A DNA stretch of 64,000 nt from Eremomyces bilateralis CBS 781.70 (Eukaryota > Ascomycota > Dothideomycetes > Eremomycetales > Eremomycetaceae): NCBI RefSeq assembly GCF_010015585.1, contig NW_022985102.1, positions 62,001-126,000 of the forward strand, written 5' to 3'. The notes beneath the pieces were generated by a model that saw nothing but the letters and a program-made list of their open reading frames with translations, searched no databases and was not told the origin of the DNA. The translations under genes were made by a program, and so were the position numbers. Positions within the stretch are counted from its first letter, which is position 1. Every line of letters starts with the position of its first letter. Positions 2,476 through 56,223 of this stretch are shown piece after piece.

Positions 2476-3381
2476 TCACATGGCCATCTCCTCCTGTAAT
2501 TTCCGCAGCTCTGCCTCTTCATCTTCCTCCTCCCTTGCTTTCCCTTTGACTATTGAACGCCGGTGGTCAGCAGATGCCTCACGATCCGATGCGGGTGGCT
2601 TTCGACTTACTTTCTCCGGTCGCGACCGCGGGTAATCTGGACACTTCGTCACCAACGGGAACCGGCCCGGTCCTCAACATCTTATTATCCAATTCCTCCT
2701 GCTGTAACGCCTCCAGCTCGCCCTCCAGCTCGTCGTTGTCGATCTGCTGGCCGGCGCCTTGCGTGATGGCATCGCCAATTTCTTCGGCGATGGCGTGTTG
2801 GTCGCGGAGGGTTTCCCTGTCGTATAAAATTTAGCCCATGTGCCCGAAACTGAACCGGGAATCCACCGATCTGGATGTGTGGTACGTACATGAGTTGATC
2901 TACCTTATCTACGGTCAGGTCGCCGTGGATGCCTTTCATTGCGACGCCGGCTTTCTGCATGGCTGCCAGCGTTTCCTTATTGATATTTGCCGACTCGATC
3001 GAATAGATCTGCTGCTCAAGAGTCATCACCTGCGACTGGGTCTGTTCCAGCGCCGTGTCCCATTGCTTCTTCTTCCGCAGTGCCGCCTTCGCCACTAATC
3101 GAGCTGTTAGTACATGTCCATGTTGGTACTCCCGACCTTCCTCGTCTGACACTGGATGGGACTCCATCAGGGAGATGTGGCAGACAGGTGCCCAACATAC
3201 AGTTCTTATTCGAGTTGACGTATTTCCTCGCTATCTGCTCCTGCTCATCAATCTGGGTCTGTAGATGCTTCTCCCGCTTCGACAGCATTTCCAGCTGTGA
3301 TCGCAACCCGAGAATCGCGTCTTTGGCACCATCTTTCTTCTTCCCACCGCCGCCGAACCAGCCCATGCCCCAGCTGGCCAT
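2476..3381 (-). CDS. snf7: ESCRT-III subunit Snf7/Vps32
   Basis: Exons 3201-3381, 3094-2890, 2816-2611 and 2549-2476 give 221 residues, the usual size for fungal Snf7. Every junction has a GT donor (GTATGT, GTACGT, GTAAGT) and an AG acceptor; the first intron has a TACTAAC branch site. The protein begins MASWGMGWFGGGGKKKDG, followed by the long basic helices (LRSQLEMLSKREKHLQTQID; LEQQIYSIESANIN) and an acidic C-terminus EEEDEEAELRKLQEEMAM, the MIM-like helix bound by Vps4 and Bro1-family proteins. Snf7 polymerises on endosomes to form multivesicular bodies; in fungi it also carries the ambient-pH signal through Vps32-PalA. The alternative unspliced reading stops soon after the GTAAGT at 2610 and loses the conserved tail. 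Divergent from ten1. Confidence 0.93.
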
Positions 3382-6849: not shown

Positions 6850-9800
6850 TTAAAACCAATCGTCGGCCCATCCCGTCTCACGGAGACGTTGAAGCACACC
6901 CCGACAACCTTCCACCAACTCGCCATCGCCGGTAAGCATGCCTTTGACTTCCTTAAGCATCTCATCCGTCCGACTCTTCAGCTCGACGTGCGCTTGGACC
7001 TCCCTTTTCGAGCCGCCATTCATCGCCGACATCCCCCCATACTGGACCGTCGCGTACGAGCAAGCCCATTTCACCAGCGCTGCAATGTAGACGCCCAGCT
7101 CAGCATCGAAGCTCAGCCGCTCTCCTTTGTCCCTTTCCCCTCCCACGGCACTAGGTTCAGCCAGGGAGCCGATCCCAGCGAATTCAAGCACTCGATCCGC
7201 CATCGTGCTCGCAACACCCGCGGCGCCGGTGTCCACCCACCCACTCACAGTCTGCTTAGCCTCTTCGTACCGCACCGCGCCTTGCCGCGAGTCCGTGGAC
7301 AGGCGGGCGGAGTAGACCCAGCTTTCGCCAGCAACGGCGAGTAGGGAGCGGAGGGGTGAGTTCATGGCGGATAGGGTTGCTGCGAGGACGACGCTGGCGG
7401 AGCGGGAGGGGGATTTGAATTGAGAAGATAAGAGGGAAGCGGGGAAGACGGAAGAGGAGGTAAGAGGATCGGTGACAGCAGCGCTGAGGGTGGGGCAGAG
7501 GGGCGCACAGCAAGCCACGAGTAGGGTTTGGAAGTAGTCGTAGGGGCGTGGAGAGTTGGATTCGGTAGCGTTGGTGGTGGTGGTGGTGGTGGTATAAGTT
7601 TGCATTGCGGATTGGAGGGAAGGCTGAGGATGAGTTGTGTGGCGGAGGAGGGCGTAGAATTCGCCCGCAGATCCGGCATCCCATATCTCGATCGGGACTG
7701 GAAAGGGAAGCGCTCGTTTGGCGAGGATCGAGAGCTTCATGCCGCGGCAAAGGAACGTTGTGTGTTGGGTGTCAAGCATGAAGCAGGCCATGAGCAATCG
7801 CAATTTGCTCTGCTTCCGGACGAACTCCAGCCAGCCCTCCGAGCCCAGATGGTTCGCAATCCCAGCCGCTGGTTCGCATTTGAAGTTTTCAAGTGTTGCG
7901 GTAAGTGCATCCTGGTCACATCCGAGCTTCACAAGGACATCAGCGGGACGGTCGGCAACGAATTGACCTCGGAGACTTACGAAATCGTACACCGTTGTAA
8001 ACTGGACAGAGAGACCACTAGGTGCCCGTCTGGCCTTGAACTGCGCGAAGTACTCCACCAGATACACCACTTGCATTTCCTCAATGGTAAGGGATGCTAC
8101 ATTTGGAGGAAGCTGTGCGTCATAGTCAGCATAGTACATATGAATAAACCATGGAGGAGAAGGGCATGTAGGAAGTCGCATACCTTCAACACTTCCGAGG
8201 AGCACCAATTATGCATAGCTCGGGCGTCGTGAAGCGCGGCCGGTGTCCCAACCATCTCCGCGCCGATTGCCATCATAGCTCCAAGCAGCAACGGGTAAAG
8301 CGGGTGAGAATTGGGAGGAGGGACGGAGGGACGGTGAAGGACTGAAAACTGGGGATGGAAAGACTTCCAATAGGAATCAATATACTGCTGCCGGATGTCC
8401 GGATCAAGGCTCGTAATACCCATAGGAAGCTGTCGATGTTGGTGTTGAGGCGATGCGTGCGTCATGCTCCCGCTCCACGACAATGGATCGGGTGTGAATT
8501 GAGGGCTCTTGGCCGATGGTGTTGGGAAGTCCATTGGGAGTGTGGTGGGAAAGGTGACTACGGATGGAGCAGGCGATACGCTGCTAGATGGAATGTAGGC
8601 AGACCCCTCGGTCGAATTCCAGACTTGTTCTTGCCCCGAGGTTATAGAGACAGGTGACATACTTGCCGATGGATAGTTAGACTGCCACGGCTCTATCATG
8701 GAGGCTGCGCATGAGGAGGGATTGCTAGAAAGGTTCGGAGCGTAAGAGTCGTTTCCGTATGGGAGAGTATAGTTCCAGTTCCAGCCCCCTAGAAGAGATT
8801 CTCCTCCGAGTGGCGGGGGGTTCTCAACCGAGATGCAGACTGACGGGGCTAAAGATACCTCCGGAAGAGGAGTGCCCGGAATGGAGATGCTGCAGGACGT
8901 TCATGTCAGCACTAGGGCCAGCCAGGCGATGGGAATTAATAAACAGAAATATGGTCTATGCTCTCTACAGAGACTCACTTGAAATTGCTTTTTGGAGTAG
9001 TAGAGAATGACTGAGACGGAGACGAAGAAACACCTAATGATTTCAAGAGCTTAAACTGAGAATTCGTGTACCTTGGAGCAGCCATTGACGTAGAGGCGCC
9101 GCCGAATGCAGTAGCCGCAAGAGGGTCAAGGAATGCCGCGGAAGCAAATGTTGGGGATCTTGCAACTGGCATCGTCACCGTGGCAGAAGACGATGAGGCC
9201 GGGAAGTGCCAGCTTGCATCTGAACCCTGCCGAGACTTCGCAGGACTATCGTCAGGCAATAGACTGTAGATATCAGTACTCGTTCGATTGAGATCTAGAG
9301 TAGACATACCACTTCTCTTCATGTCGCTGCAACAGGTCCTGTCGGTGGAAAGTCTTCCCACAACTGTGCTTGCATGGGGTAGTAGATCCATGGTTTTGCT
9401 GGTGCCGCCTGAGACGATTGAGTACAGTCCGACTGGGCAATTGGATTCCACGAACCTAAGATGTTCTGCTCTCGAGTACGTCTTCCCACAACTACAATTG
9501 TGAGCACCTTGCAAGCCTTTCTTTGCTCTGCTAATGCGGCCAGTGCGGGTATAGCTGATTTCACCTAGGGCATGCCGCGGGTGCCTCCCAGACTTGGAGG
9601 TCTCGGGGTGCGAATGTCCACTCATGATGGACGCTTTTCGTTTAGGAGACGACAAGCTCGCACTGAATTCGTTTCTGGTCGACTTCGAAAGCTCGTGAAC
9701 AAAAGTGGAGGTGTCGGAGGAGAGTCCGGATGCACTGGCGGTCCGTGGTGGGGTTAGGGACGTTTTATTAATAGCATCGGAAGGACCATAGTCCTCATAT

Positions 9801-13000: not shown

Positions 13001-15805
13001 CTTAGCGACAGAGACAGCATTTAGTAACCTTGTTAGACCAATGGTCCGCGTCCACCGCCTCGAGGGTTCTGCTGACCGCTGCATTTGATCGGATCTAAGC
13101 AGAATTTCCTAATTAGGTAATGCTGAAGGGCGATCGTAGCGGTCGAATTTAAAACCTGTCCACTCCGCCGGCCAGCTATCTAGGGCAGCCTGTCGCCTAT
13201 GTCCAACTCCTTTGCCAACAGACATGTGGATCAAACCAGTATTCTCCCTCATCAGTCATAAACAGGGACAATGCTGACCAACCTCGTTGTACAGTCCCCG
13301 GTTTCGTCTAACAGTGCACCCGAAGTAGTCGAGTCATTGGCAATGCTCAACTGTGAAATCATTTCGCCATTTCAGCTTCGCGTGCGATGTTCGTTAATTT
13401 GCCGAGATGAGGCATTGCTCCGTCAATAATCCCGGTGCGGCAGATTCGTGGCCGAACAAGGCTGAAGCACTGATGACTTCGAAGTCCGAACCGAGCAACG
13501 ACTTCACGTATATTTATTATTTTGGTATTGCACCACGAAACCAACCACCAGTCTTTATGATAATGTAGGAGGCCTTCTATCTGCCAGTCGAGAAGCTGAC
13601 CAAGCAGGTTTTGTCATTCGTCGAGGATGGAATGGGATCGGTAGGCGGGACCCCTGAACTCACTATGCTGTTGTTGGTCCCTTGGCAATGGCTAGCATTA
13701 ATAGAGGTACCCAGGCGAACCACATGCTTTGAATGGAATAGCATGTAACCACCCGGTAGTAAAAAAGGTGGCGGGAATCGGGATGAACAAGGGACCTTTG
13801 AGAGCAAGGTTGATATCTTTGGTGAATGTCTTGGTTAGTGAATAATGATAAGTCCCCTTTTTCTAGTTCCTGACTATCTACAACCAGGGCGACGACTGAC
13901 GACGAACGAGAAATGGGAGTACTACCCAATAGTTCAAATTAGACTCTTGGGTCTCCAACGACGGTGGTCCTGTTTCTATTATTGATCCGCGCGAAGGATC
14001 GTTTACCATCGCTGAAGTCCATGAACGGTGAGTACTAAGTAGCCATTACCGCGCTGCCACGAAGAATGATTTCACATCGACTCGATCATGACCGTATCGG
14101 GGTCTGGACATGGTAGTTGGATGTGTAGCCGTGTCCTAACATGATCATTGAACGATCACACTTGCCCCATGCTTCTTGCTTTTTAAGGTGCGATTCAGTC
14201 TTCTCTCGAACACTTCATCGACTTAGATAGGTTGATTGATGAGCATGATGAAACGAGAATGCAATATGCGGGCACATTCCGCTCCATTAGTCAATAGAGA
14301 CAGTTGAGAGAGACAGTGCTGTCTAACAGGCGTCAGTGCGTGGCTTCGAATGCGTGCGGCCCGAGAGGGTTGGTATTAACTACTAACTACCTTAATTAGT
14401 TAGCGTCTTCACCTCTCCCATGGGTCGTAACTCGTAACCCGTTACTCTCCAGTCTCCACTCACTTGCTTCCCCAAGTGCCCAGTCCCCATGGACCAACGG
14501 ATCCACCATGGTAGGGCGGCAAGCCGACAACACAGTTGCACGCTGCAAGGCCTGCAATCAATCCAACCAATACGACTTCCGAGGTATGATTGCTAGCAAT
14601 TAGAAAGTCGTCCGGGCAGGGGTTCGATGGACGGCTGCGATGATAAGTCCGTTCCAAAAGCCATCACGCTTTTCCGCGTCGGCCACCCCGTCCAGCCTCA
14701 GGGGAAAGGGGCATGTCGCAACTCCCAAGGCTTCCAGTTTGAAGTTTTCAACGTTCAAATTTTTGCGATCGCCTTACGCCTGGACCAATTCTCGGCCCAG
14801 GCATGGAGAAATTAAATGTGGATGCTCCGGGGCCTCTGGACCACTGAGACGGGAGGATCGATAGAGTCGAACCTAGTAGAGACATCGGACCAAGAATGGT
14901 AGCCCGTAGCCGTGAGCCGTCCAGCACCCCTCAGATGATGAGCGTCGCCAAGAGATGTGTGTGGATTGGCTGTCCCGAAGTCTGAACATAAGCACGGAAG
15001 AATACGGATCCCTTTGAGGCCTCGGTTTGCAATGATAGGAGGATCTAGCTATTGGTGACATTACTATTGATGATGTGAATTCACTGAATATAATTTGTAG
15101 TGTAAGACCAGAAATGGAGGGGTTGAAGGGGTGAATTTCTCATGAACTTCCATGGTGACTGAGTCGTCGGTCGTGCATGTGGTATCAGATGATGTTTTCA
15201 AATGTGGACGTCGCGGATGATCGAAAGCCTGGCCAGCGCAACCAGCAAGTCGATGCCTGAGTTCCTCAGGCTGGTATGTCAATGAGATATCAATTAATCA
15301 ATGACTAGACAAGACAAAATTGATACAGTATCAGACATCTGATTCACCAAACTAGACCAGGCAGTTGAGTTTTCCTGTCGATTGGCAACATCATGAAGTA
15401 TTTCAATGACTATAAGCTCTCTCCCCGTGTTGTACTGTATCGAAGGGCGAACTCTAACTGGAATGTATTACCTCTCTCCCAGACGCCGTTCCCATGCTCC
15501 GATTCTGCTAATAAGACAATCCGACAATACCAAACATGCACCCGACACATATCCATCCTCTTTCCCATGATATCTTCCTCCAACAGGCTTGTATCGTCCT
15601 GCAATGTCCCGAGGCGGGATTAGTTGAGAGACGTACATACTGAAAACAGCTCTCAAACACCTACGACCTACGAGAGGCGTCGACCACCCTTCGTGTCTTT
15701 CGCAGCGAACCCATTATTCAGGCTCGTCCTTTCAGGCGACCTCGCACCTCTTCCGGCCGACGAACCGCCCACTTGATGATCCTCTCCATCATCCATCCCC
15801 CATCG
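10007..15805. other. 5.8-kb gene-free region
   Basis: No frame here resembles a protein family, and the longest are 115-134 codons without coding character. The stretch lies between the start of the C2H2 regulator and the 3' end of the Fic1-type gene, so most of it is the regulator's upstream region. A G-rich patch with six runs of three or more G lies at 11293-11343. No tRNA, 5S rRNA or transposon end was recognised. It may hold a long 5' leader, a non-coding RNA or decayed repeats. Confidence 0.5.
11293..11343 (+). repeat. G-run patch, possible G-quadruplex
   Basis: Within 51 bases there are six G-tracts of 3-5 G separated by short loops (GGGGAATTGGGGG at its start, GGGGAATGGGGATTGGGG at its end). 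The preceding 60 bases are also G-rich. Whether it folds or matters is not known. Confidence 0.4.
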
Positions 15806-18843: not shown

Positions 18844-19784
18844 TGCGGATCAGAAAACAATGATCACAGTCTAGAAGGTCTGTGGAGGGTAGAACGAGAG
18901 AGATGAAGTGTCAAAGAAGCGCCAGAATTGATGGGATGGCCGCGTACGTGTGGCCAAGGTCCTAGAAAGAGTGGATATGGGGAATCATGGAGTAGGTCAT
19001 CTAAGTGAAGGTTGAGCAATTGATTTGATCTCCAAACCCAATAACTGCTGAAAGGGTAGAATGAAGGAATCTAGCAGCAAGAAACGAATGTACAGTCAGT
19101 ACGGAATAGCACTAGATGATAGCAAAGGTAGCTTCGCATGCTTGGGAAACGGGTGGTGGTGGCGGAGGAGGGAGTGCATTGTTTTGATGGATTTGTTTGG
19201 TGGTGACGACGTGAAGGTGGTTGGTGGGAGGCTGGATCCGGGATCGACGCTGCACGCATCCACGCGTCCCAGACGAGTTTCAAGATTCTAGTCACTTCGT
19301 GTCATTGGGGAAATCCCCTGCAATGATCATTTTCTCAATTTCTCAACAACTACCTACTCCGTTCAGCATCGTCTATTGCGATCTCTCGGACTCGGTAGTA
19401 ATCGGTAGAAATGGAGATGGTCGGTAGGGTCACGTGACGGGAGAGTATGACCAGGGTCCCTTGTCGTCGGGCTTGGCGCACATGCTCAAAATCACCTGAC
19501 TGCAGCGAACAACATCACCTGCAATTTATGGTCCAAGCTTGAGCGGTTTACATTAACTTAGCAGTGAGTAATTAGCTGATGAGCAGTGATTGGCTCATGG
19601 CTGAAAGCACGTGACCTGATCACCGCCATCCAACAAGCCAGAATTGCAATGACATCGGTTTGGTGATCTGACAATCCATCATCTCCATCCTCCATAGTCC
19701 CGCAAAAATTGGCCTTGCTGTACTTGATACCTCTCTCATATCCTACAACACATAACGTTCCACTCGTCGGACATTTAAGAAACC
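18844..19784. other. Divergent promoter region fic1 / sar1
   Basis: About 940 bp between divergent starts. Short frames at 19061-19295 on both strands are not family-like. No RNA gene recognised. Confidence 0.6.
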
Positions 19785-21040
19785 ATGTGGATTCTCGATT
19801 GGTACGTCCCATATCTTCTCACAAGCTCCCAACCCATCAAACATGGCGCATCGTCTAACGAGTGGATAGGTGTAAGTCGGCCCTGACCCCCTTGATCCTG
19901 CGTAAACCCGCGGTGTAGCTGCGCAGCAGTGTCCGAGCATCTTCGCGCGCAATATGAGACCAGGAAACTAAAGATCCGTTACGCAGTTTGGGACGTCCTC
20001 GCGTCCCTGGGGCTGATGAACAAGCATGCGAGTACGTCAACCTCCGATAGCATGATCCATGCTTCTCGTTCCCTTCCTTTTCACTGACCAGTCCCCCGTA
20101 GAGCTGCTGTTCCTCGGCCTTGACAACGCAGGCAAAACGACCCTTCTCCACATGCTGAAAAACGACCGCGTGGCAGTCCTTCAGCCGACCCTGCATCCGA
20201 GTAAGCTCAGCCCGAGGAGATATATCCCTACCATAGATGGCAAGAGGCTAACCCCGCTGGCTCGAAAGCATCGGAGGAGCTGAGTATTGGAAACGTGAAG
20301 TTTACGACATTCGATCTGGGTGGTCACGCACAAGCGCGGAGGTTATGGAGAGATGTAGGTGCTCATCGCACAAAACGACATGACCTAGATTCTAACTACC
20401 AGGTCTGCAGTATTTCCCCGAGGTGTCTGGGATCGGTAAGCAACCTTCTGCTGGGGTTCCTCGTAGCCCGTATCCCCAGCTATCCATTCCTAACCCGCCC
20501 CTCCAGTGTTCCTCGTCGACGCGAAAGACCACGAACGACTCCCAGAGGCCAAAGCCGAGCTAGATGCGCTGCTGTCAATGGAAGAACTCGCAAAGACGCC
20601 GTTTGTCATCCTGTAAGTGAACGGACCTTCCTCCGCCAAGCTCATAGCAAAAGCTGACCCGATGCAGAGGAAACAAGATTGACCGTATGCACCAAAACAC
20701 ATGCCCTGCGCATCACTCCGAGTATCCCTGTTGCTGATCTCCCGCTTTATAGACCCGGACGCCATCTCCGAAGATCAACTCCGCGCGACCCTAGGCCTCT
20801 ACCAAACCACCGGCAAAGGCAAGGTCCCCCTCGAAAACATCCGGCCCATCGAGGTGTTCATGTGCTCAGTGGTATGTTTGCTTTCCCATCCGTTCCCAGG
20901 CTTTTCACTCCCTTCAATCATCCCTTTTCTTCAAACCCAACTCCGTCTACGGTGGTTCGTCTGCTCATATCATTTCCCTACGATAGGTTCTCCGCCAAGG
21001 ATACGGCGAAGGCATCAGGTGGCTCAGCCAGTATGTTTAG
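19785..21040 (+). CDS. sar1: COPII small GTPase Sar1
   Basis: Ten exons: 19785-19801, 19870-19871, 19987-20031, 20102-20200, 20269-20354, 20411-20435, 20507-20612, 20668-20684, 20753-20871 and 20987-21040. They total 570 nt, 189 residues plus stop, exactly the usual fungal Sar1 length. G1 (GLDNAGKT), the switch II DLGGH, NKID and the C-terminal GIRWLSQYV are all present. Sar1 is the ER GTPase that recruits Sec23/24 to start COPII budding. Exon 2 appears to be only two nucleotides (GT): splicing exon 1 straight to exon 3 breaks the frame, whereas TG+GT+TTTGG gives WFW, matching the family motif WFxDVL. Both flanking introns have good signals (GTACGT ... TCTAAC ... ATAG, and GTAAGT ... GCAG). 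It is an intron-dense gene, as sar1 genes usually are. Confidence 0.93.
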
Positions 21041-21620
21041 GTCAAGGATGACGCATACAGCATCATCTGCTACGCTGCAATTAAGTACCGAAAACCCCAG
21101 TGCCAGCGTGCGTGCATCACTCCCTTTCGTGGGTGACTACGGTATCATGAAATCGCCGCGTGGGGTCCGCCAACCCACAAATTCAAGCTCTCTGGATCCG
21201 GCGACAACGGTGTTGCGTTGGCGATATGATTTGTTTGCTATTGAATAATTACAATTCGATGATTGGGTCATTAGCGGCATCGACGGGCTTTTTCTTCGCT
21301 GCTGGTCTTTTCGATGGAGATCAACGGCGACGGTATGGCGTCTTCAGTTCTGTTCGTTATAGAGAAATGGAGAACGCTTTACTATATTATGCTGTGCTGT
21401 GCTGCCCTTTACTCCCGTATAATACGCTCAAATGCAGTAGGTAGGCGATGGTAGGATTGAGAACTATGACCTGGAACTTGTGCCATGTTCGGGAAGTAAT
21501 ATTAGTTTCATTTGAGGTTATGGAACTATGGTCGTTAGTCCAGCACGTATGATAAAACATGTCTAGCTAAGAGATATTTTCTTGCTCAGGACACGATCCA
21601 TCCCACCTATCGTTCACTGT
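21041..21620. other. Convergent intergenic region sar1 / copper ATPase
   Basis: 3' flanks of both neighbours. No gene seen. Confidence 0.6.
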
Positions 21621-24578
21621 TCACTGCCCCCACCTCCCCCTCCTCCATCTCCACCTCAACGTCACTGCCACCGCCACCACCGGCAACACGCTCACCAGCT
21701 CCCCCACCGCCGCAAACGCCGGTGGGATCCTCCACCCCTTCCCGCCCCGCACCTTCTCGAACGCCCCCGCCGCCCCCAGCAGCGCCACCACGTTGTACAG
21801 CCCTGCCCACACGAAGTTCAGCACGATGCGCCACCACGCCGACGCGCTCACGTCCTGCAGGATCAGCAGCCCGCGCAGATCCGGATGCACGAGGACGACG
21901 TCGGCGGCGGCGCTGGCGACTTCGGAATTCAGGGAGGTGGAGGCGGAGAGGGTACGGGGAGTAGTAGAGGCTATAGTTGTCGAGGTTATGGGTCGAGAGG
22001 TGCAGGATGGTACGATCCCTGACGCACCGTCTGGTTTGGTAGGGATGGAAAATGTGCGGCTCGCCGTGGTCCTGAGAGGCGGGCTGGTGTATGCGGTCGA
22101 CGACGGCATGTGCACACCAATGCTTGCTAGCCGCAGCGCGGGCGCGTCGTTCGTCCCGTCCCCGCAGAATACGACGATCGGGCCGCCTTTCGAGGTGCCG
22201 TTCCGGCGCCGCTTGGCCTGCGCTCCTGACGACAGGAGATCGCGGAGGTACTCTTGCTTCGCGGCCGGGGATGCTTGCGCCTTCACATACTGCGACAGGA
22301 TGCCGAGCCGACCCGCAACGTCCAGCACCGTTGCACTGTTGTCGCCGCTGACGATATGCACGGTGACGCCGCGTTTCTGAAACGCGCGGATCACCTCGGG
22401 GGCTTCGCGACGGAGAGGGTTCTCGAGGCCGTATACGGCGGCGATGGTGCCGTTGATGGAGAAGCAGAGAACAGAAAGACGCTGCTGGTGGATCGTGAGA
22501 ACGTCGGGGTGTTTATCGGCGCTGAACCATGCAGGATTGCCAGCGAGGACAGGCTTGCCTTGGTATTCGCCTTCGATGCCTTTGCCGGGGACAGAGACGA
22601 TGTTGTGGATATGGGCGGGTAACACACCGTGAGAGCGGAGATGTGTGGCGACGGCTTGCGAGACGGGATGTTTCGAGCCTTCGATGAGTCCAAGGAGGAG
22701 GGATTTCGGTGCTGCGGCGGCGAGCTCATCTTTTGACTCGGGTTTCGATTCGTTAGTCGCCGGTTCGCAACAGGCGTCAGGGCATGTGGGACCGTCCTTT
22801 TCCGCCTCTTTCGTCTTTGCATTCAACAAGTGCTCCGCAACGACGCTCATGTTTTCTTCCGTCAAAGTTCCGGTCTTGTCAAATACGATGTGTTTCATGT
22901 TCCTTGCATTTTCGATGGCGAGTGGATCTTTGAACACCACTCCCATCTTCGCCGCCACTCCACGAGTAATCACGACGACCATGGGCACCGCTAACCCGAT
23001 GGCGCAGGGGCAGCTGACGACCAGTGTAGCGATGGCAAACGTCAGGGCATTCGCTGCAGCCTCTCCACGAGACACCTTCTCAACGTAGACCCTGACAAGG
23101 AATTGAACCAAGAAAACGACGAGCGTGATCACAACAACCAGCGGGACGAACCAGCCAGCTATCGCATCGGCAATCTCCTGGGTGCGAGGTTTCTCGAGCT
23201 CGCCTCGATCGACTAGCGTGGCAATCTCGTGGATGGTGTTTTCGCTCGGAAGTTTGGTCAACTTAACATCCAGCGCCCCGCTGCGGTTGATGCTCCCTGC
23301 AATCACCCGGCTTCCCACACCTTTGGCAACTAATCTCGATTCGCCGGTCACCATACTCTCGTCCACTTCAGAGCCACCGAAAGTCACAATGCCATCGGTG
23401 GTGATTCGGGAGTCAGGTGGCACTCGAAAAAGATCGCCGTATTGCAGCAGTCGGGAATCGATGGATTGCGTATGGCGAGGATCCTCTTCGGAAATGAGGA
23501 GAGCGGATGACTCCTGCAGTGAGCGAATTGAGACCGATTCCGTCGCTCTCTGCCGGGAATACTCGCTGATGAAGCGTCCAAGCATTATCAAGGTGATCAG
23601 TAGCGTGCTGGTCTCAAAGAACTCTCCTGTCTTCAGCGGGTGTCCGCTCAAGTAATGGGCGAAGGCGACTACTGAATAGATATATGCGGCAGAAGTGCTC
23701 AGCGCGATCAACAGTGCTAGCTCAACAATTCGTGAATAGAAGAGATCTCGGAATGCTTTCGGATAGAACTCCCATGCGACCCCGCACTGGATGATTGTCG
23801 CCAGTGCAAATGACGTGCAATTATATGCCAGCGACTGACTCTTGTCCTCTGGAAGCGGAGCCCACGCCATTATCAGAACCGGAATGGTTAACATAGCTGC
23901 ACCGCAGAAGAGTAATCCTTCTTTTTTCACTTGCTTCTTGCCTGCTACGATCGACGGGTCTTGGTTCGGTGGAGCGAGGGCCAGTTCATGTCCGAAGCTC
24001 TGTTCCGCCAGGGTCCTGGCGCCGACAATGTGAGCGTCGAATGAGATTCGAAGGTACCCCTCCGGCGTTGCTGAAATGTCGGTTACTCCATTTGGAAACG
24101 GTTTCTGCGAGATACTGTAGTCCTCGTCCCGTGGCGGCACGACATCAAGGACCTGACCGTCGGCTTGTTCGAAAATTTGGTGGTACTTGTAGGATGTCTG
24201 CTTGTGTAGCCGAGATAGCAGTTCTCCGATGCTGAGCCTGCCGACATCGAGGTCAAATTCGGCGCGGGATAGGACCAGGCTGATCTTGATATTGCCCAGA
24301 ACTTCAGGAGTGCCCTGCAGAGAGCGTTCCAACTGCCTCTCACACCCTGAACATGTCATGCCTTGGACACTGATGACCACATGCTCCACAATTGGAGGAC
24401 CTTTCTCGACGTCTAGGCTGGCGCCATTGAAGGAAACAATACCACCATCCTTTGAGTTGCTGTCCTTGGATGAATGTCCCGAATGTTCCGAGCGTCCTGA
24501 ATGTCCACAGCATGGCGTGCTCTCCTCTACACTCTCCTCTTGGCAACAATGAGTCGCTTTGTCCTTGCAGCAACCCAT
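21621..24578 (-). CDS. Copper-type P1B heavy-metal ATPase
   Basis: A single 985-residue frame from the ATG at 24578. The N-terminus is Cys/His-rich (MGCCKDKATHCCQEE, then CCGHSGRSEHSGHS). One intact HMA metal-binding domain has GMTCSGC (Cys76, Cys79); a second HMA-like stretch (about 165-200) lacks the cysteines. The pump core is complete: TGES at 411, CPC at 523-525 in the transport helix, DKTGT (Asp567), the HP loop SKHPVSQAV at about 635 and GDGTNDAP at 806. CPC with YN in the next helix points to Cu(I) export or delivery, as in fungal CrpA-type detoxification pumps and Ccc2. A Ser/Thr-rich insert of about 60 residues (825-886) replaces the usual NEGTDVAQ segment, and a Cys cluster (CPDACC, 599-604) sits in the nucleotide-binding domain. 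The gene symbol is not assigned. Confidence 0.9.
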   Translation of the reverse strand: MGCCKDKATHCCQEESVEESTPCCGHSGRSEHSGHSSKDSNSKDGGIVSFNGASLDVEKGPPIVEHVVISVQGMTCSGCERQLERSLQGTPEVLGNIKISLVLSRAEFDLDVGRLSIGELLSRLHKQTSYKYHQIFEQADGQVLDVVPPRDEDYSISQKPFPNGVTDISATPEGYLRISFDAHIVGARTLAEQSFGHELALAPPNQDPSIVAGKKQVKKEGLLFCGAAMLTIPVLIMAWAPLPEDKSQSLAYNCTSFALATIIQCGVAWEFYPKAFRDLFYSRIVELALLIALSTSAAYIYSVVAFAHYLSGHPLKTGEFFETSTLLITLIMLGRFISEYSRQRATESVSIRSLQESSALLISEEDPRHTQSIDSRLLQYGDLFRVPPDSRITTDGIVTFGGSEVDESMVTGESRLVAKGVGSRVIAGSINRSGALDVKLTKLPSENTIHEIATLVDRGELEKPRTQEIADAIAGWFVPLVVVITLVVFLVQFLVRVYVEKVSRGEAAANALTFAIATLVVSCPCAIGLAVPMVVVITRGVAAKMGVVFKDPLAIENARNMKHIVFDKTGTLTEENMSVVAEHLLNAKTKEAEKDGPTCPDACCEPATNESKPESKDELAAAAPKSLLLGLIEGSKHPVSQAVATHLRSHGVLPAHIHNIVSVPGKGIEGEYQGKPVLAGNPAWFSADKHPDVLTIHQQRLSVLCFSINGTIAAVYGLENPLRREAPEVIRAFQKRGVTVHIVSGDNSATVLDVAGRLGILSQYVKAQASPAAKQEYLRDLLSSGAQAKRRRNGTSKGGPIVVFCGDGTNDAPALRLASIGVHMPSSTAYTSPPLRTTASRTFSIPTKPDGASGIVPSCTSRPITSTTIASTTPRTLSASTSLNSEVASAAADVVLVHPDLRGLLILQDVSASAWWRIVLNFVWAGLYNVVALLGAAGAFEKVRGGKGWRIPPAFAAVGELVSVLPVVAVAVTLRWRWRRGRWGQ

Positions 24579-28241: not shown

Positions 28242-31200
28242 TTATGCGTCCTTCATCACTTCGTCGTGTATGGCGCGGGTGGGTTCATCTTCGTGAGTGC
28301 GTCCGTCTTCGCGGCTAGGTTCGTCTTCGCGGCTAGGTTGGCCTTCGGCGGTGGGTTGACCTTCNNNNNNNNNNNNNNNNNNNNNNNNNNNNNNNNNNNN
28401 NNNNNNNNNNNNNNNNNNNNNNNNNNNNNNNNNNNNNNNNNNNNNNNNNNNNNNNNNNNNNNNNNNNNNNNNNNNNNNNNNNNNNNNNNNNNNNNNNNNN
28501 NNNNNNNNNNNNNNNNNNNNNNNNNNNNNNNNNNNNNNNNNNNNNNNNNNNNNNNNNNNNNNNNNNNNNNNNNNNNNNNNNNNNTGGGTTGACCTTCGAC
28601 GTTGGGTTGACCTTCGACGTTGGGATGACCTTCGACGTTGGGATGACTTTCGACGTTGGGCTGACTTTCGACGTTAGGTTGACCTCCGACGTTGGGTTGG
28701 CCCTCCAAGTTGGCGGAAGAATTGACACTGCGGTGATCTTCGACGTTGATTTGGCCTTCGCCGATACCCTCGCGTTCATGATTGCGTTCGGCTTGGCGAT
28801 TGCGTTCGGCTTGGTGATGGCGCTCGGCTTGATGATGGAGTTCGGCCTGGTGATGGCGCTCGGCTTTTTGACGAAGTTCGGCTCGGTGATTGCGTTCGCG
28901 TTCGTCCATGTATCCCATCGCTTCGTCGTCGGACGAGATGTCCGAATCACTCAACGGCTCGAATCCATGTTCTTCCATGTCGTCCGGTGAATCCACGGTA
29001 ACCTGTCCCGTGGCCCTTGCGCCAACCGTCTGCCCATAGTGATGCTGATCCGCTCCTTGGCCCATACCCGCAGCACCACTCGAACCCGACACGGCTACGG
29101 CCTCCACATCGCCTTTCATCTGCTCCACCAATTTCTCCGCCTCCTTCTCCGCCGCGCCGCCATTCAGGCTCGCCTGCTGCGGCCCCACCTGTCCGGGCTG
29201 GCCTGCCTTGCTCTTATTGAACACGTTCCGAATGACCTTGACCAGTTCGTTCTCCAGCTGCGTGAGGCCCGGGATTGGTAGCGGCTTGTCATTGAAGCTC
29301 TCCGCCATCGCGTGGTCGACTTCCCGCAGGCTTTGGCTCGGGTGGTTCGTGCTATTCTTCACGTACCAGTTGCGGAAGTTCAGGAACCCGACCGCTGTGT
29401 AGTCGGGGAACGTGACACCGAAAAGTCGGAAGAACTGGAGGGACGGGTTCGGAAAGCCGTCGATGGGGGGTGCGAGGTCAGGTTGAATGTGCGGACCTTG
29501 GAAGGGGAGGAGGTGGTTGGTTGAGGCGATGTTCGGAGTCGGGCGGGCCGGAGGTGGGGGTAATGGGCCGGAGGAGGAGGCGTGGGGTGCGAAATGGGGT
29601 GGAGGATGCTGGGCGGGAGGGGGATAATTGTGGTAGACTCTTTGGGGGTATGGGGAGTTTTGAGAGTACGGTGAGCGGTAAGGTTGTCCAGGTCGTGATG
29701 GAGTGCCTGGAGTAGCATCTGGTGCGCTGTCGAGGTGGAGGCTGGCCGGGGGTAGAGGAAGAGCACGCAGTGGTGCCGGACTCGTCTGGACGACGAACAT
29801 CAACTTCTCGTCTGGTGCCACAGGTCGTGGGCCATTGATCCGAGGATTTGGCAACGTTTCTTCTGCACGTCGCTTCCGGTCCTTATCGAATGGTTCGTTT
29901 GGATCGATGCCCCAGAGCCAGCCCTTCCCGTCTTTCTCCACTTTGCGGAAACAAGGATGTTGCGCAAGATTGTGTCGCACACTACTTTGCCAACCATTTC
30001 CATCGACGGAGAATTTATAGTGTGGGTAGCGCATCATAATCCGCTTGTAGATGGACTTCAGGTTCAACGGCTGGGTGGAGGCGCTGAGGACTTCGTAGAT
30101 GATCACGACGTAGGGTTTGCTTGGGGCCTTCAGCTGCTCGGGGGTGTAGTCCGCGAGGCGCATCTCGGGAGATGGAGACCGCTCGCGTTTGGGCGGCTTG
30201 TCGACTTTCGGAATATACCCAGCGGGTTTCTCCACGGGTGGACGAGGTTCACGTGGGTGCTCCTCGTCGGCCTCATTTCCTTCGTCATGGTCACTATCCA
30301 ATCGCTCGGGTGCTGGGGTCACTTCATTGGGATCCAGGCCTTGCTCTTCGCGACGCTTTCGCTCCTTGTACTCTCGCAGCAATTGTTGTTTCTCGCGTTT
30401 CGACAGGAATTCTTTTGAGGGCCGACCTGGTCCACGGGGCCGAGCGGGGATGACGATGCCGATGGGAAGCCCTGGGACATGAACATCGACGCCATTGACT
30501 AGATCACGTTCACGAGAAATGTTTTCGGTGGATGGCAGCATCGCGCTGGGTGAGGCAGCATCACTCTCGTCTGGTGGACTGGACACCGGCTCCTCAGGTG
30601 ACTTGACTTTCGGAGGTGCTGGGCGGCCATTGACCTTGGTCGTGATCTTCAGATTCTTCTTCAACGCCTCTTTCTTCTGCGCTTTCGTCTGCTGCTTCTG
30701 GGGTGCCTGTTTCTCCTGCTTCTCCAGGGCCGTCGATGGCTTTGTCTTGCCGCCTTTGTGCTTCCACCGCGGATCGTGTGTCGGCGGCTTCTCTGGCTCT
30801 TTCTCCTTGATTCGAAGCTTCAGAGGAGGCTTCGCCGGTTTCTTGGTGTATTCGACTTCTCCAGGGGACTCGCTGTCCTCATCTTCCATATCCTCATCCT
30901 CGTTGTCGACCCCATGCTGATCGAGGTCCTCGTCATCATCAAACTCGGCTTGTGAGCCATAGTAATAGTACTCCGGCTGCTCGTATTCTTCTTCGGACTC
31001 TCCGGAGATGTGTGTGTCGATCTCATTCCCTTCCTCGTCTTCAAAGCTGACGCTCATCTTCTCGCTCCGGTTATCATCTTGAACCGTATTCTCCGGCAAT
31101 ATGAAGGAGATCCTAACACCGCCAATTTGCATAATATTACCGCTTTCCAGGACCCTGTCGTCACCTCGTTCGAGGTGAACGCCGTCCAAGAAGGCACCAT

Positions 31201-32215
31201 TAATTCCCAGGACCTCCATTCTCCAAACCTGCTCGGAGATGCTGAAGTATATGGAGAGGTGCTTTCGTGAGATGGCTCCGTGGGATTTCTCGTTGGGCCC
31301 TACCGGGTTGTGAACCGGAACAAATGGCTCTTCGTTGGGGTCGGCGGCAAAGCTCGAGAAGTCGGGAGGGAACTCGCTTGTATGGTTGATGGTGGTGCCG
31401 TTTCGTTTGTCCAGTTGCGCGTCGGCCGCGACACTCGGGGCCAACGGATGGTAAAACTCATGAGTGAGGTTGGCCCCGTCGGAGTTGATGGAATCCTGCG
31501 ACTCGGAGGCGGCATGCCTTGAGCGACGGCTCTTCAGTGCCATTAAGGAGTCGGCAGACGGACCGACGATGCCTCCGCTCTCGCTGATTTGACTTTGTGC
31601 AGCGCTCATCTGCCCCGAGTGACCTCCATTCCCTAGGTCCCTGGCGATCGCCTGGAGAGCATCCTCATTCGAGTTTTCTCTGGATTTGCTCTTGAGCATC
31701 TTATATAGTCTCAAGTCTCGGCCAATATAAACGCGCTTGGTGTTGATATAAAAGTTGCCGTCCGGGAAGCCAAGTTTCGCGAACGCCATAATGGTCTGCG
31801 GGTGCGGAGTGGAATTGCCGCCATGGTGACCATCGCTCGATTGGATGGAGGCGAAGTTATTCGGATCGAATGAGTTGATTCCCGGACTTACTCCCGCGAG
31901 AGCATGGCTGAGCGCTCCGTGCAATGTTCCATCGGTCAATGCGCTTGCGCCTGCCTGGCCAAGGGCTAATGCGGCGGGGTGAACACTACTGGGGGTTTGA
32001 GGCGGCTCCTGTTCGACCGACTGGGGGTTGAGGTCCCAGTTGGCGATGGTCGAGGGTTCGACCGGAAGGTTATGCAGCATATCGAGGGTTGGTCCTGGAA
32101 TTGCCGCGCTGGAGTCGGGATATATGGTGTCGCCATCAGTGGCCATGGTAGTGTCGACACCGTCGGTGTTCAGATGTGAAGGTACTTGAATCGGATGTGA
32201 GGCGAGTAGAGACAT
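28242..32215 (-). CDS. fhl1: FHA-forkhead transcription factor, Fhl1 type (assembly gap in tail)
   Basis: A long single exon from the ATG at 32215. An FHA domain, split by an insert of about 140 residues, runs from FYINTKRVYIGRD (155-167) to SRKHLSIYFS and ISFILPEN (about 316-376). A forkhead domain is at about 697-780 (KPYVVIIYEVLSAS, GWQSSVRHNLAQHPCFRKVE, GWLWGIDP). A GRP AT-hook-like core (PRGPGRPSKE) lies near 594. FHA plus forkhead is the Fhl1 architecture; in yeast Fhl1 with Ifh1 controls ribosomal-protein genes. The tail carries HHQAER and PNVEGQ hexapeptide repeats, then 220 N. The frame that continues the repeat past the gap reads EGQPTAEGQPSREDEPSRED and ends at the TAA at 28242; the frame obtained by counting the N literally ends at 28256 with an unrelated basic tail. 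Confidence 0.88.
28365..28584. other. Assembly gap (220 N)
   Basis: The gap lies inside an 18-bp coding minisatellite. The flanking repeat phase requires a missing length of 5+18n bases; 12 units give 221, one more than the 220 N shown. The copy number is therefore uncertain. Confidence 0.97.
28585..28715. repeat. 18-bp minisatellite encoding PNVEGQ
   Basis: About seven visible units on the + strand of the type TTGACCTTCGACGTTGGG, translated on the minus strand as PNVEGQ and variants (PNVESQ, PNVESH, PNVEGH, PNVGGQ). It runs into the N gap and resumes for two degenerate units at 28335-28364. Confidence 0.9.
28778..28890. repeat. 18-bp repeat encoding HHQAER
   Basis: Five or six hexapeptide units on the minus strand (KAERHHQAELHHQAER, then HHQAERNRQAERNHER) directly upstream of the PNVEGQ array. 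It has the same unit length but an unrelated sequence. Confidence 0.8.
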
Positions 32216-36656: not shown

Positions 36657-38490
36657 GGTCAGCTGATATCTCGACCGTCCACCCCCCATTCCGCCCACCC
36701 AAAATCGGTATCACATCAGTCGCTTTATTGCTTCATCTAGTTGAATCCATACGTTTTTTGGTGGTCTAAAGTTGAAAATTATAAAGACACGACTGGAAAT
36801 AAGCCTCAGTGCTTTTGGCCTCCCCCCCTGCGATGTATTGGTGATCTTCTGCCCGTTTTTCCTCCTCGGCAGCCTCCTTCTCGGCCTGTTCTTTTTCAGC
36901 AAAAATTCGGTCGGCATTCGCATATTTCTCGTTCTGATCGACAGTGATCTTCTTCTGTTTCTTCCGCAGCAGGTCGCCCATATCTTTAATTGTTCTGCTA
37001 AGGCGTTGAACTTCCGCCTTGTGCGAGGCGATTACGGTGTTCTTTTTGCCAAGCGACTTTGCAACCTTGCGCTGGAAACCCCTCCGACCCCTTGCCGTCA
37101 AATCATCCATTTTTGTATCCCATACTTGACTAGGACCATCCGGAGTATGTGATCTACATGTATCAGGCGGCTCCGGTGTAGTTTCAGGGAAAAATATATG
37201 GTTCTCGTTCAATTGGGTAGAGGCCAAGATCTTGTGCTTGTTGAACGGAAACAGACCAGTGCCACGGAACCCCGCCCGTATATTTTCGGCTGACAAGCCT
37301 TCAGGGCGCGCCTTACTATAGATCTCAATGAATCTATGCTTTTTTACAGGCGTATTATCATCAAGCGAACTTAGGAGACGTAGTTCGCGGCGGTATTTCG
37401 ACTTCAAAGGCGAAAAGCACGCGATATCGAGGGGTTGCAAGATATGCGAGCAATGAGAGGGGAGATATAGGAGGAAAACCTTATGGTCTTTACACAGCTT
37501 CATGATCTCAATCGTTGCATGTGACCCATGGCCATCGCAGACTAAGAGGCGCCATTCGTTCTTGTCTTCAGGGGCTGTTTCCGGCAGGAATTTCCTACGG
37601 AGCCAGTTAAGCCCGATTTCGTTGGACGTCCAGGCGTTTTCAGATACTGTGAAGTGCCAATTCCGCCACCCATAAATATGGGCCGGAAACCATGTAGTCT
37701 GCAGGCTGTAACCTTTGAAGATTACAAGTGGTGAGATCGATCTACCGTCTGCAGAAATCGCTTCGATCAGGGAGACCCATTCCCGGCCGCCGGGGGTCTT
37801 AACGTACGTATGGCCCTTCAAATTCTTCTTGCGCGCTGCGACCACTTTCCCATTGGTGCCCATACCGAACATTATCCCATGTTCGTCGAAATTCCAGCGG
37901 TTGCAGGGCTTGATCTTGTAGGTCGTGCAGATATGCCTGTACAGGTCGAGAAAACTAGAAATAGCTTCTTTTGTTGCTCCATTTGCCCGTGAGGCCTCTA
38001 GAGCCTTCCCCACCATAATTACTAGTCACCTGGGGGTTCCGGCGCAAAAAGCCCTGGACCCAATGCTTCCCGCAAGGTTTGTTGTCGCCATTTTCTCGCG
38101 CAATACATTCCGCCATTTGGGTAACGCGGAGATAGGAAGGGGCTCAATTAACGGAATCTTCGGCGACGATCCATTCGACCAGATCCCGTTCTTGATTAGG
38201 TGAGAGTTTCTGCCGAATCTGCAATGTTTCTTTGTGTGAAGGTGTGCCGTCAAGTCGGCCTCGAATCGTGCTCCTTGGAATCTGATAAGCGGTCGAAGCG
38301 GCACGGACAGAAGGATATTTTCCGGTTTTAATATCACCTAGCGCATTTTCCAGCGCTTCCTCTGTATACTTTGGCATTTGTATGAGAAATTGGTAATGAA
38401 ATAGAGTTGATATTGTAGTAAAGAAAATATTACCCGGCATATTTTGAAGTGGGCGGGATCGGGGGTGGGCGGTTAGGGGGTCAGCTGACC
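36657..38490 (-). mobile_element. Fot1/pogo-type DNA transposon
   Basis: An 1834-bp element flanked by TA on both sides (36655-36656 and 38491-38492). The inverted termini begin GGTCAGCTGA and stay alignable for about 45 bp (left and right both continue into CC-rich sequence with CCGCCCAC). It contains one transposase gene reading towards the left. Size, TA target site and DDD transposase fit the Fot1/pogo branch of Tc1/mariner. Confidence 0.9.
36766..38377 (-). pseudogene. Fot1/pogo transposase, two lesions
   Basis: From the ATG at 38377: an HTH_psq domain (LENALGDIKTGKYPSVRAAS, IPRSTIRGRLDG), then a CENP-B-type DNA-binding domain and a DDE_1 catalytic domain with NFDEHG, VCDGHGSHAT and LQPLDIACFSPLK holding the three Asp. 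The C-terminus is a Lys/Glu-rich coiled coil. There is an in-frame TGA at 38144-38146, directly after WIVAEDSVN; the same frame continues with APSYLRVTQMAECIARENG to about 38025. A frame change near 38020 then leads into the intact 416-codon remainder (36766-38016, GKALEASRANGATKEAIS onwards). The two lesions and well-preserved termini suggest a fairly recent insertion, unless one lesion is a sequencing error. Confidence 0.88.
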
Positions 38491-52751: not shown

Positions 52752-53768
52752 ATGAGTAGGAGCCCATATTCCTCTGCCGGGCGACTATGCTTCCGATGCT
52801 TGCGCGCATCAAAGCAGAGCCGTAGCACACGATCCTTTGCCTCCACTGCAAGCGCCAACCAACCACCCGCAGCTTCACCACGTCCATCCAGCAATGATGC
52901 TGCACCCGCAGACACCACGCATTTCGGGTTCCAGACAATAGCAGAATCCATGAAGGAGTCTCGAGGTATGTCCGCACCCCTCGAGCCACCACATTCAATC
53001 TAACCGCCCTCAGTCGGCGCCGTGTTCTCGTCCGTCGCCGGAAACTACGACGCCATGAATGATTTTATGTCCCTCGGAATCCACCGCCTCTGGAAAGACC
53101 ACTTCGTTCGCTCCCTCGACCCCGGCCATCCATCCTCCATCTCCCCATCCACCCCATCGTCTGGCTGGAAGATCCTCGACGTCGCCGGCGGCACGGGCGA
53201 CATCGCCTTCCGCATGCTCGATCACGCAACCACCATCCACAACGACACCAGCACCTCCGTTCTAGTCGCAGACATCAACCCCGACATGTTGAACGAGGGC
53301 AAGAAGCGTGCGCTTCAGACGGCATATGCGCGCTCGGGGCGCCTGGAGTTCATGGAGGCCAACGCGGAGTCCATCCCATCCATCCCGTCCAACTCTATCG
53401 ATCTGTACACTGTCGCCTTCGGCATCCGGAATTTCACACACAAAGATGCCGCACTGCGCGAAGCGTTCCGCATCCTCAAACCCGGCGGCATCTTCGCGTG
53501 CCTGGAGTTCACGCCTCGGCTCTCCAACCCGCTGTTGAACGCCGTGTACAAGCGGTGGAGCTTCGGGGCCATTCCGATCATTGGCCAGCTGGTGGCGGGC
53601 GATCGGGATAGTTACCAGTATTTGGTGGAGAGCATCGAGCGGTTCCCAAGCCAGGATGAGTGGCGAGGGATGATCGAAGATGCGGGGTTTGTGACTCCGC
53701 AGACGGCGTGGGAGGATTTGAATGGGGGGATCGCCGCGATTCATAAAGGGATGAAACCCTTGCGGTAG
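52752..53768 (+). CDS. coq5: Mitochondrial 2-methoxy-6-polyprenyl-1,4-benzoquinol methylase COQ5
   Basis: Exons 52752-52965 and 53014-53768 (48-bp intron, GTATGT ... CTAAC ... CAG) give 322 residues. The N-terminus is rich in Arg and Ser with no acidic residues for 45 positions, a good mitochondrial presequence. The UbiE/COQ5 signatures are present: VFSSVAGNYDAMNDFMSLG, motif I ILDVAGGTGDIAF (125-137), VADINPDMLNEGK, AFGIRNFTHKDAALRE and FRILKPGGIFACLEF. It performs the SAM-dependent C-methylation in ubiquinone synthesis, within the matrix-side CoQ complex. GGIAAIHKGMKP at the C-terminus is also diagnostic. Confidence 0.94.
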
Positions 53769-54931: not shown

Positions 54932-56223
54932 AGCCAAAAGTCTGGGCACAGACCCCATTCTCACCTGAATATCTCTACACCCACCCCTTACTTTGACAAT
55001 CAATAACTTTACCAAAATGAGGTCTTTTGGCACAAAAATAAGTGGTAATCGAGGGCCTAATAAGGAGTTATCGGCCGCTTAAAGAGTTGGAATTGTTCAG
55101 GCTGCTGAAGATGGGAAACCAAAGACTGAAATCGCGCGGAACTTTCGCGTCTCTAGAAGCACGGTGCATGGGACTCTAGAGAGATGGGAAGAACATCAAA
55201 CCACCGTATCTTTACCCCGTGAAGGGTGTCCCCATAAGCTATCACGCCCTGACGAACGGCATATCGTTCAAATCGCGCGTCGATTTCCTAAAATGGAGTA
55301 TGGAGAGCTCCTCGCAGGTATTTCGTACCTCCGCATTTCTAGGAAGACTATCTACCGAACCCTTAAGAAATATCACCTTACGAAATGGCGAGCGAAGAAG
55401 AGGCCTTACCTGAAGCCCCACCACGCAAAAGTCCGCGTCCGATTTGCCCACGAATTTCTTGAATTCGACTTCTCCCGGACCCACTCCACGGACGAGTGCT
55501 CGTATGAGAAGGGGGCGGGCGGTAAGCAGGTATGGGTATGGCGACTGTACCACGAGGCATATGATCCGCAAATGGTCGAGCCTAAGACCTCTGGCAAGGC
55601 CATTTCACAGATGATATGGGGCTCAATCTCGCGTGATGGGAGGTCAGGCCTGGTGATCATGGACCGCGACGAAACCTCCGCAAGACAGGGCTATTCCGCG
55701 AAATCCTACATCGCTACGTTAGAGGAGGGACTTCTCCCTACGTACGAACCCGGGGATGTTGTTATCCAGGATAACGCAAGGATCCATACGGCTAAAATCA
55801 CCCAAGAATGGCTGGAGACGCACGGCATTTGGGTCATCGATTGGCCGGCCAATTCTCCAGACATCAACCCCATCGAGCACATATGGCATCTGTTGAAATC
55901 AAAGGTCCTAGAGCTGCACCCCGAATTGAAGATGATGGGCGCCTCGGAGGAGGCACGGGAGGCCATGAATGCGGCGTTAAAGGAGGCGTGGTGGGCGATC
56001 CCTCAGGAGACGATCCGAGAGCTGATCGACTCAATTCCGCGACGTCTACGGGCGGTAATCAAGGCAAAAGGGTGGCATACGAAATATTAGATATTTCCCA
56101 ATTAAGAAATCAAAAAAGTAGACTGAATTTGCATTTGTATGTGTTTTGCAGCGTATCTCAAGATACGGTGTATAGCGATTAGATTTGGTGATTTTCGGGG
56201 GTGTGTGCAGACATTTGTCTACT
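54932..56223 (+). mobile_element. Tc1-like DNA transposon
   Basis: About 1.29 kb between TA dinucleotides at 54930-54931 and 56224-56225. The imperfect inverted termini share AG, then CAAA or AAAA, GTCTG, GCACA and ACCCC, and stay alignable for roughly 35 bp. It holds a single rightward transposase gene. Size and termini fit fungal Tc1-like elements. The exact ends are uncertain by a few bases because the termini have diverged. Confidence 0.8.
55017..56090 (+). pseudogene. Tc1-like DD34E transposase, one nonsense codon
   Basis: 357 codons from the ATG at 55017. The helix-turn-helix (AEDGKPKTEIARNFRVSRST) is followed by a second basic DNA-binding part and the catalytic core with STDECSYEKG, VVIQDNARIHTAKI and SPDINPIEHIW; Asp and Glu are 34 residues apart (DD34E). 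The only visible lesion is a TAA at 55080-55082 (codon 22, after ELSAA). A 309-codon frame beginning at the ATG at 55164 could still be translated but lacks the first helix-turn-helix. The TAA could derive from CAA by one C-to-T change. Confidence 0.9.

Follow-up and report, generated by a model that had tools for sequence, protein, structure and literature searches.

A candidate two-nucleotide exon in the fungal COPII GTPase gene sar1

Introduction

Exons of one or a few nucleotides have been described in plants and in filamentous fungi, and the accounts of published systems given here follow the available extracts of the papers cited. In the CYP621A genes of Fusarium, a one-nucleotide exon has been reported with 20 orthologues and 18 RNA reads (PMC12940212, Feb 2026). 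In plants, the one-nucleotide exon of APC11 was documented by cDNA and reporter constructs and is conserved across land plants (PMC4674806), and that of VPS55 is supported by cDNA or RNA-seq (PMC8831610). The APC11 study had already put forward intron definition combined with sequential intron removal; when it enlarged the exon to 2 nt (A to TT), correct splicing was obtained in Arabidopsis and not in rice (PMC4674806). Larger examples from fungi include the 3-nt exons of lipS, a lipase gene of Dactylellina (PMC5639578), and the glucose-regulated 20-nt microexon of Trichoderma Xlr2 (PMC11121469). In addition, filamentous ascomycetes are described as splicing by intron definition, and their twin introns show that they cope with consecutive reactions (PMC6616335).

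Here, we analyse a candidate two-nucleotide exon in sar1, the gene of the fungal COPII small GTPase, on the forward strand of a 64,000-nucleotide stretch of DNA from Eremomyces bilateralis CBS 781.70 (hereafter the window; the genome comprises 26.63 Mb in 62 contigs). An earlier reading of the window made without database searches (the sequence-only reading) had proposed this exon and had placed a length of 2 nt near the lower limit, a view that does not stand, given the one-nucleotide exons published from Arabidopsis and Fusarium in the papers excerpted above. Like CYP621A, sar1 comes from a filamentous fungus and carries its ultra-short exon inside a conserved motif, flanked by AG and GT. 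As far as the extracts describe it, the outer exons of CYP621A are out of phase and not directly joinable, as are those of sar1, and the apparent intron is long in both genes (139 nt in CYP621A, 185 nt in sar1). The two cases differ in that the CYP621A exon is 1 nt long and backed by RNA reads and orthologues, whereas that of sar1 is 2 nt long and known from the sequence of one genome. APC11 and VPS55 resemble sar1 in having an ultra-short exon that lies between two introns and is required for the reading frame, but they are plant genes whose exons, according to the same extracts, have been proved on transcripts and are conserved across land plants, whereas sar1 is a fungal gene read from genomic sequence only. 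The exons of lipS and Xlr2 are, like exon 2 of sar1, small, internal and from filamentous ascomycetes, but larger.

Materials and methods

Splice signals were scored with a model trained on predicted, not RNA-proven, introns of the same genome. The training input consisted of 29 sequences with 290,658 bases, 4,320 of them N, and matrices from an earlier self-training run (24 introns) seeded the subsequent run. The gene finder returned 261 introns in 102 genes, and after three sar1 introns had been dropped, 258 were used for scoring. Two loci (L003 and L008) overlap and 3 introns are therefore counted twice; with the 255 distinct introns, the percentiles reported below for introns 1 and 2 of sar1 stay at 67 and 32.

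Joins leading from exon 1 to the GAC codon of exon 3 were enumerated using GT or GC donors, introns of at least 40 nt and a middle exon of at most 60 nt. For the chance test, the native donor and the native final 30 nt were grafted onto 185-nt noncoding segments of the same genome; the 4785 segments were taken at a step of 37 nt and are not independent, because they overlap and come from both strands.

Results and discussion

The predicted protein matches PF00025, the Arf/Sar GTPase domain, with an E value of 1.8e-63. Its closest solved structure is yeast Sar1 (1m2o_B, E 3.2e-88), whereas Arf chains reach 7.7e-28 or weaker among the best 60 of 87 PDB matches. With an Arf/Sar domain and Sar1, not Arf, as the top match, the protein belongs to Sar1. 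When introns of 42-199 nt were searched, we found a single set of GT-AG joins that spells a Sar1 protein of 189 amino acids. This solution has ten exons of 17, 2, 45, 99, 86, 25, 106, 17, 119 and 54 nt, which sum to 570 nt with the stop codon. It coincides with the 189 residues in ten exons, including GT at 19870-19871, that the sequence-only reading had put forward, and direct reading of the sequence confirmed all of the exon and intron coordinates given there. The modelled features are as follows.

19785-21040, + strand: sar1, fungal COPII small GTPase gene
19785-19801, + strand: exon 1, 17 nt, ATGTGGATTCTCGATTG, encodes MWILDW, last codon split after TG
19802-19869, + strand: intron 1, 68 nt, GTACGT...GATAG
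19870-19871, + strand: candidate exon 2, GT, 2 nt, would finish TGG (W6) and open TTT (F7)
19872-19986, + strand: intron 2, 115 nt, GTAAGT...CGCAG
19987-20031, + strand: exon 3, 45 nt, starts TTTGGGACGTC, remainder of the N-terminal helix, homologous to yeast Sar1
20102-20200, + strand: exon 4, 99 nt, single GT-AG solution
20269-20354, + strand: exon 5, 86 nt, preceding intron ends in AAG
20411-20435, + strand: exon 6, 25 nt, single GT-AG solution
20507-20612, + strand: exon 7, 106 nt, single GT-AG solution
20668-20684, + strand: exon 8, 17 nt, single GT-AG solution
20753-20871, + strand: exon 9, 119 nt, single GT-AG solution
20987-21040, + strand: exon 10, 54 nt including the stop codon

As modelled, exon 2 consists of 2 nt between two canonical GT-AG introns and can be classed, at the level of sequence, as an ultra-short microexon. 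Besides it, sar1 has small internal exons of 17 nt (20668-20684) and 25 nt (20411-20435). The intron at 20201-20268 has a good branch candidate (GCTAAC) and ends in AAG, an acceptor that scores -1.3 (0th percentile of the trained set) and whose rarity is unproven, because the training cut-off of the gene finder excludes such acceptors.

To our knowledge, fungal Sar1 proteins start with MWI..WF. When translated with the 2-nt exon, the N-terminus is identical to that of yeast Sar1, the N-terminal helix of which is printed in the available part of PMC4569407, at 10 of 11 positions. The enumeration yielded 179 in-frame open joins, 28 with one intron and 151 with two, and a start of the form MWIxxWFxDV arose from 1 of the 179, namely from the 2-nt exon joined to 19987. 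The W-F pair of the yeast Sar1 N-terminal helix is likewise present with this join only, which is also the top two-intron join when ranked by the weaker intron (16.8). Exon 2 thus provides both the frame and the conserved residues, whereas the other in-frame joins lack MWIxxWFxDV. The claim that sar1 needs a 2-nt exon therefore holds if the family N-terminus is required, but not otherwise, since 28 one-intron joins also keep the frame.

Comparison with solved structures pointed in the same direction. In phmmer searches against yeast Sar1 (1m2o_B), the model with the 2-nt exon scored 298.2 bits, compared with 289.6 and 289.9 bits for two rival N-termini, and it was higher on all 16 Sar1 chains reaching 1e-60, with margins of 0.1 to 8.6 bits; on the two of these chains that start past the helix it was ahead by just 0.1 to 0.3 bits. 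The hydrophobic moment of the N-terminus did not separate the models (0.20 with the 2-nt exon, 0.22 for each of the two rivals). As the sequence-only reading had stated, joining exon 1 directly to exon 3 loses the frame, and the product of exon-2 skipping stops after 27 residues. Retention of intron 1 leads to a stop after 38 residues and retention of intron 2 to a stop after 21. The predicted transcript junctions are GATTG-GT-TTTGGGACGTC for use of the 2-nt exon, GATTG-TTTGGGACGTC for skipping and GATTG-CTGCGCAG for an acceptor at 19918, and the junction sequence GATTGGTTTTGGGACGTC would be incompatible with a single intron 19802-19918. Judged by these comparisons, exon 2 of sar1 is very probably the GT at 19870-19871, joined to 19987.

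The splice signals around this dinucleotide are of unequal quality. Both introns had been described as having strong signals, which applies to intron 1 (score 20.2, 67th percentile of the 258 trained introns), but intron 2 is ordinary (16.8, 32nd percentile), with its acceptor at the 9th and its branch site at the 28th percentile. The branch candidate of intron 1 is TCTAAC at 19854-19859, whose A (19858) lies 11 nt from the end of the intron, and that of intron 2 is ACTAAA at 19967-19972, whose A (19971) lies 15 nt from the end. In both introns, the acceptor used in the model is the nearest YAG after the branch candidate. A GT exon with both introns at or above the observed scores occurred in 0 of the 4785 overlapping segments and in 0 of 20,000 shuffles; when the threshold was loosened to 11.9, the 5th percentile of the trained introns, it occurred in 7 and 31, respectively. 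When any non-stop 2-nt exon was accepted, the counts were 0 of 4785 segments and 3 of 20,000 shuffles at the observed strength, and 122 and 693 at the loose threshold.

The main alternative is a single intron, 19802-19918, without a 2-nt exon. It would give a protein of 211 residues with an N-terminus that is 22 residues longer and lacks the conserved W-F, and we regard it as unlikely. The intron itself scores 19.6 (donor GTACGT, acceptor GTGTAG, branch candidate CCTGAC 32 nt before its end), and the stretch 19919-19986, which this model keeps as exon, is open in frame and coding-like at +3.7 bits, a value to be set beside the 95th percentile of 150 open intronic windows (3.5) and the median of 1660 coding windows (4.4). 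Scored by the gene finder without homology at three intron penalties, the single-intron parse reached 15.6, 13.6 and 11.6, and the 2-nt exon with acceptor 19986 reached 17.6, 13.6 and 9.6; the two tie at an intron penalty of -13 and the single intron overtakes at -15. This near parity is not seen at the protein level, where the single-intron model loses 8.6 bits against yeast Sar1, is lower on 16 of 16 Sar1 chains and would break the N-terminal membrane helix, the yeast form of which is given in the extract of PMC4569407. Moreover, chance produced a one-intron rival of the same quality in 143 of the 4785 segments at its own score of 19.6 (523 at 16.8 and 1183 at 11.9), in contrast to none for a GT exon of the observed strength. 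A related reading, which we consider still less likely, retains the 2-nt exon and lets intron 2 end mostly at 19929 (or 19926), so that 19 or 20 residues would be added before WDVLASLGL. With acceptor 19929 the gene finder gave 22.3, 18.3 and 14.3, the highest of six parses compared, and a free run on the locus picked the 2-nt exon with this acceptor and not with 19986; the rival acceptor CAGCAG also scores higher (5.1, compared with 4.3 for 19986). Use of 19929 or 19926, however, loses the conserved F7, and its branch candidate CTTGAT is weak (2.8), whereas the better ACTAAA (4.6) lies just upstream of 19986.

A splice model without homology thus fails to settle the N-terminus of sar1. At the level of sequence, it is homology that decides between the 2-nt exon and its rivals; splice and coding scores alone leave the 2-nt and the 19802-19918 models about level, with the balance set by the intron penalty. 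Two further explanations do without the exon altogether. A sequencing or assembly error, in which two bases were lost from an exon edge of a gene whose true structure has a single intron of about 185-187 nt, is very improbable: homopolymer runs at the exon edges are no longer than three, and an error would not account for a well-signalled AG-GT-GTAAGT, complete with branch candidate, whose two bases are precisely those lost (0 of 4785 segments). The least credible option is a different first exon that provides the N-terminus and is spliced straight to exon 3, which the sequence-only reading had named as a finding that would overturn its model. Nine in-frame joins to acceptor 19986 do exist from ATGs at 19386-19940, but W-F is restored by none of the nine, and the two best of these first exons (13.2) start with MVVWDV and MEMVVWDV and need introns of 563 nt. 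The GT at 19870-19871 joined to 19987 is the preferred model of exon 2.

Stretch 19919-19986, which in the preferred model is part of intron 2, is coding-like and in frame with exon 3, and three further acceptor-like sites (19918, 19926 and 19929) mark or closely adjoin its start. It may be used in a minor isoform with a longer N-terminus.

The preference of the gene finder for a 2-nt exon was given little weight and not used as evidence, because the program over-calls tiny exons: 14 of the 172 internal exons that it predicted are 15 nt or shorter, including sar1 exon 2 and two of zero length. A ban on the donor costs 7.7 bits for the sar1 exon (111.5 to 103.8) and 0.1 to 13.3 bits for the 13 other tiny exons. 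Further predictions of this kind are an exon of 1 nt at 8547 of locus L026 (- strand), one of 3 nt at 15665-15667 of the window (- strand) and two of 4 nt, at 2039-2042 of L022 (+ strand) and at 1285-1288 of L002 (- strand); given the over-calling, these are leads only.

How so short an exon is recognised had been raised as a question by the sequence-only reading, together with ordered removal of the two introns as a possible answer. The question is not new; both it and the answer of sequential removal are found in the extracts of PMC4674806. For sar1, we infer that the cell splices the GT exon as modelled, that splicing in this fungus follows intron definition and that the two introns are removed sequentially. 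In such a scheme, two ordinary U2-type introns of 68 and 115 nt would flank the GT exon, and the donor, branch site and acceptor of each intron would suffice for its recognition as a unit, so that exon 2 would not have to be detected. The acceptor of intron 1 and the donor of intron 2 lie just two bases apart, which makes simultaneous occupancy improbable, and the introns would accordingly leave successively. If intron 1 were removed first, the resulting junction would read GATTG-GT-GTAAGT, in which GTAAGT (7.9) should outcompete the overlapping GTGTAA (1.5), such that the two bases are kept. If intron 2 were removed first, GT would become the start of exon 3. Both orders would yield TGG TTT, that is W6 and F7 in the N-terminal membrane helix. 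Ordered removal is therefore plausible, but no order is fixed by the sequence, since the sites of both introns are complete before splicing begins; what the sequence would bar is simultaneous handling. A hairpin was considered as an explanation of exon recognition and rejected: the RNA of 19785-20031 folds more weakly than shuffled sequences (z +1.83), 196 of 200 of which were as stable or more so, and we see no role for a hairpin for this reason.

Two known classes of consecutive splicing resemble this arrangement. The stwintrons of ascomycetes, as described in extracts of PMC6616335 and PMC5639578, share with sar1 nearly overlapping U2 introns that are removed consecutively under intron definition. 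In a stwintron, however, a splice element of the outer intron is split by the inner one and the order is forced, whereas in sar1 the GTAAGT is intact and the order unforced. We rejected this class for sar1, because no splice element is interrupted: in the pre-mRNA, intron 1 has its acceptor whole and intron 2 its donor, GTAAGT. With the zero-nucleotide recursive sites of long animal introns (extract of PMC13149111), sar1 shares AG|GT at 19869/19870 and the presence of a donor at the junction that the first step creates. Unlike at these sites, two bases would be kept in sar1, the introns are short, and the zero-nucleotide donor GTGTAA is weak, with a use that would shift the frame. Zero-nucleotide recursive splicing was rejected for sar1 on score (1.5 for GTGTAA, 7.9 for GTAAGT) and on loss of frame, and sar1 is not such a site because the two bases are kept.

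In yeast, sar1 is essential. If such a gene has a 2-nt coding exon, its output would hinge on the retention of two bases in every round of splicing. Exon 2 of sar1 would add a case from a fungal housekeeping gene to the very short list of exons below 3 nt and would allow a clean test of the idea that intron definition in fungi makes no demands on the exon. It opens no new mechanism, because 1-nt exons and sequential removal have already been published. Automatic annotation would probably mis-start or mis-extend the Sar1 protein here, and Sar1 models of related fungi therefore deserve a check. There is also a slim chance that exon 2 serves as a regulated control point, at which skipping, with its dead-end product, or use of the acceptors at 19918, 19926 and 19929, which would insert 19 to 22 residues into the membrane helix, determines how much Sar1 there is or how it binds to membranes, and secretion in turn.

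None of the titles and abstract openings listed from the open-licence literature showed a 2-nt exon of sar1, and a word search of the Lipomyces paper PMC7138796 returned no small-exon terms. When Sar1 orthologues were sought by pattern, 3 stretches matched in viral contigs, none of them a relative, and 15 stretches matched in genome contigs, 2 of which are relatives, both in prokaryote records (39% and 26% identity) and of no use for comparison; neither set contained a Sar1 orthologue. In the genome itself, RF00002 gave no 5.8S rRNA match in the 39 of 941 candidates that were scored.

The window also contains other predicted genes, and its proteins and gene structure point to a fungus. On the - strand, these encode a member of the Snf7 family (2476-3381), a protein with PCA1-type and HMA heavy-metal domains within its first 400 residues (21508-24578) and a forkhead protein (28256-32215), and on the + strand a ubiE/COQ5 methyltransferase (52950-53768). 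Two genes are transposase-like, one at 36766-38016 (- strand) with a DDE_1 match (E 1.1e-34) and one at 55293-56090 (+ strand) with matches to DDE_3 (E 3.8e-15) and a Tc3-type HTH (E 6.2e-10).
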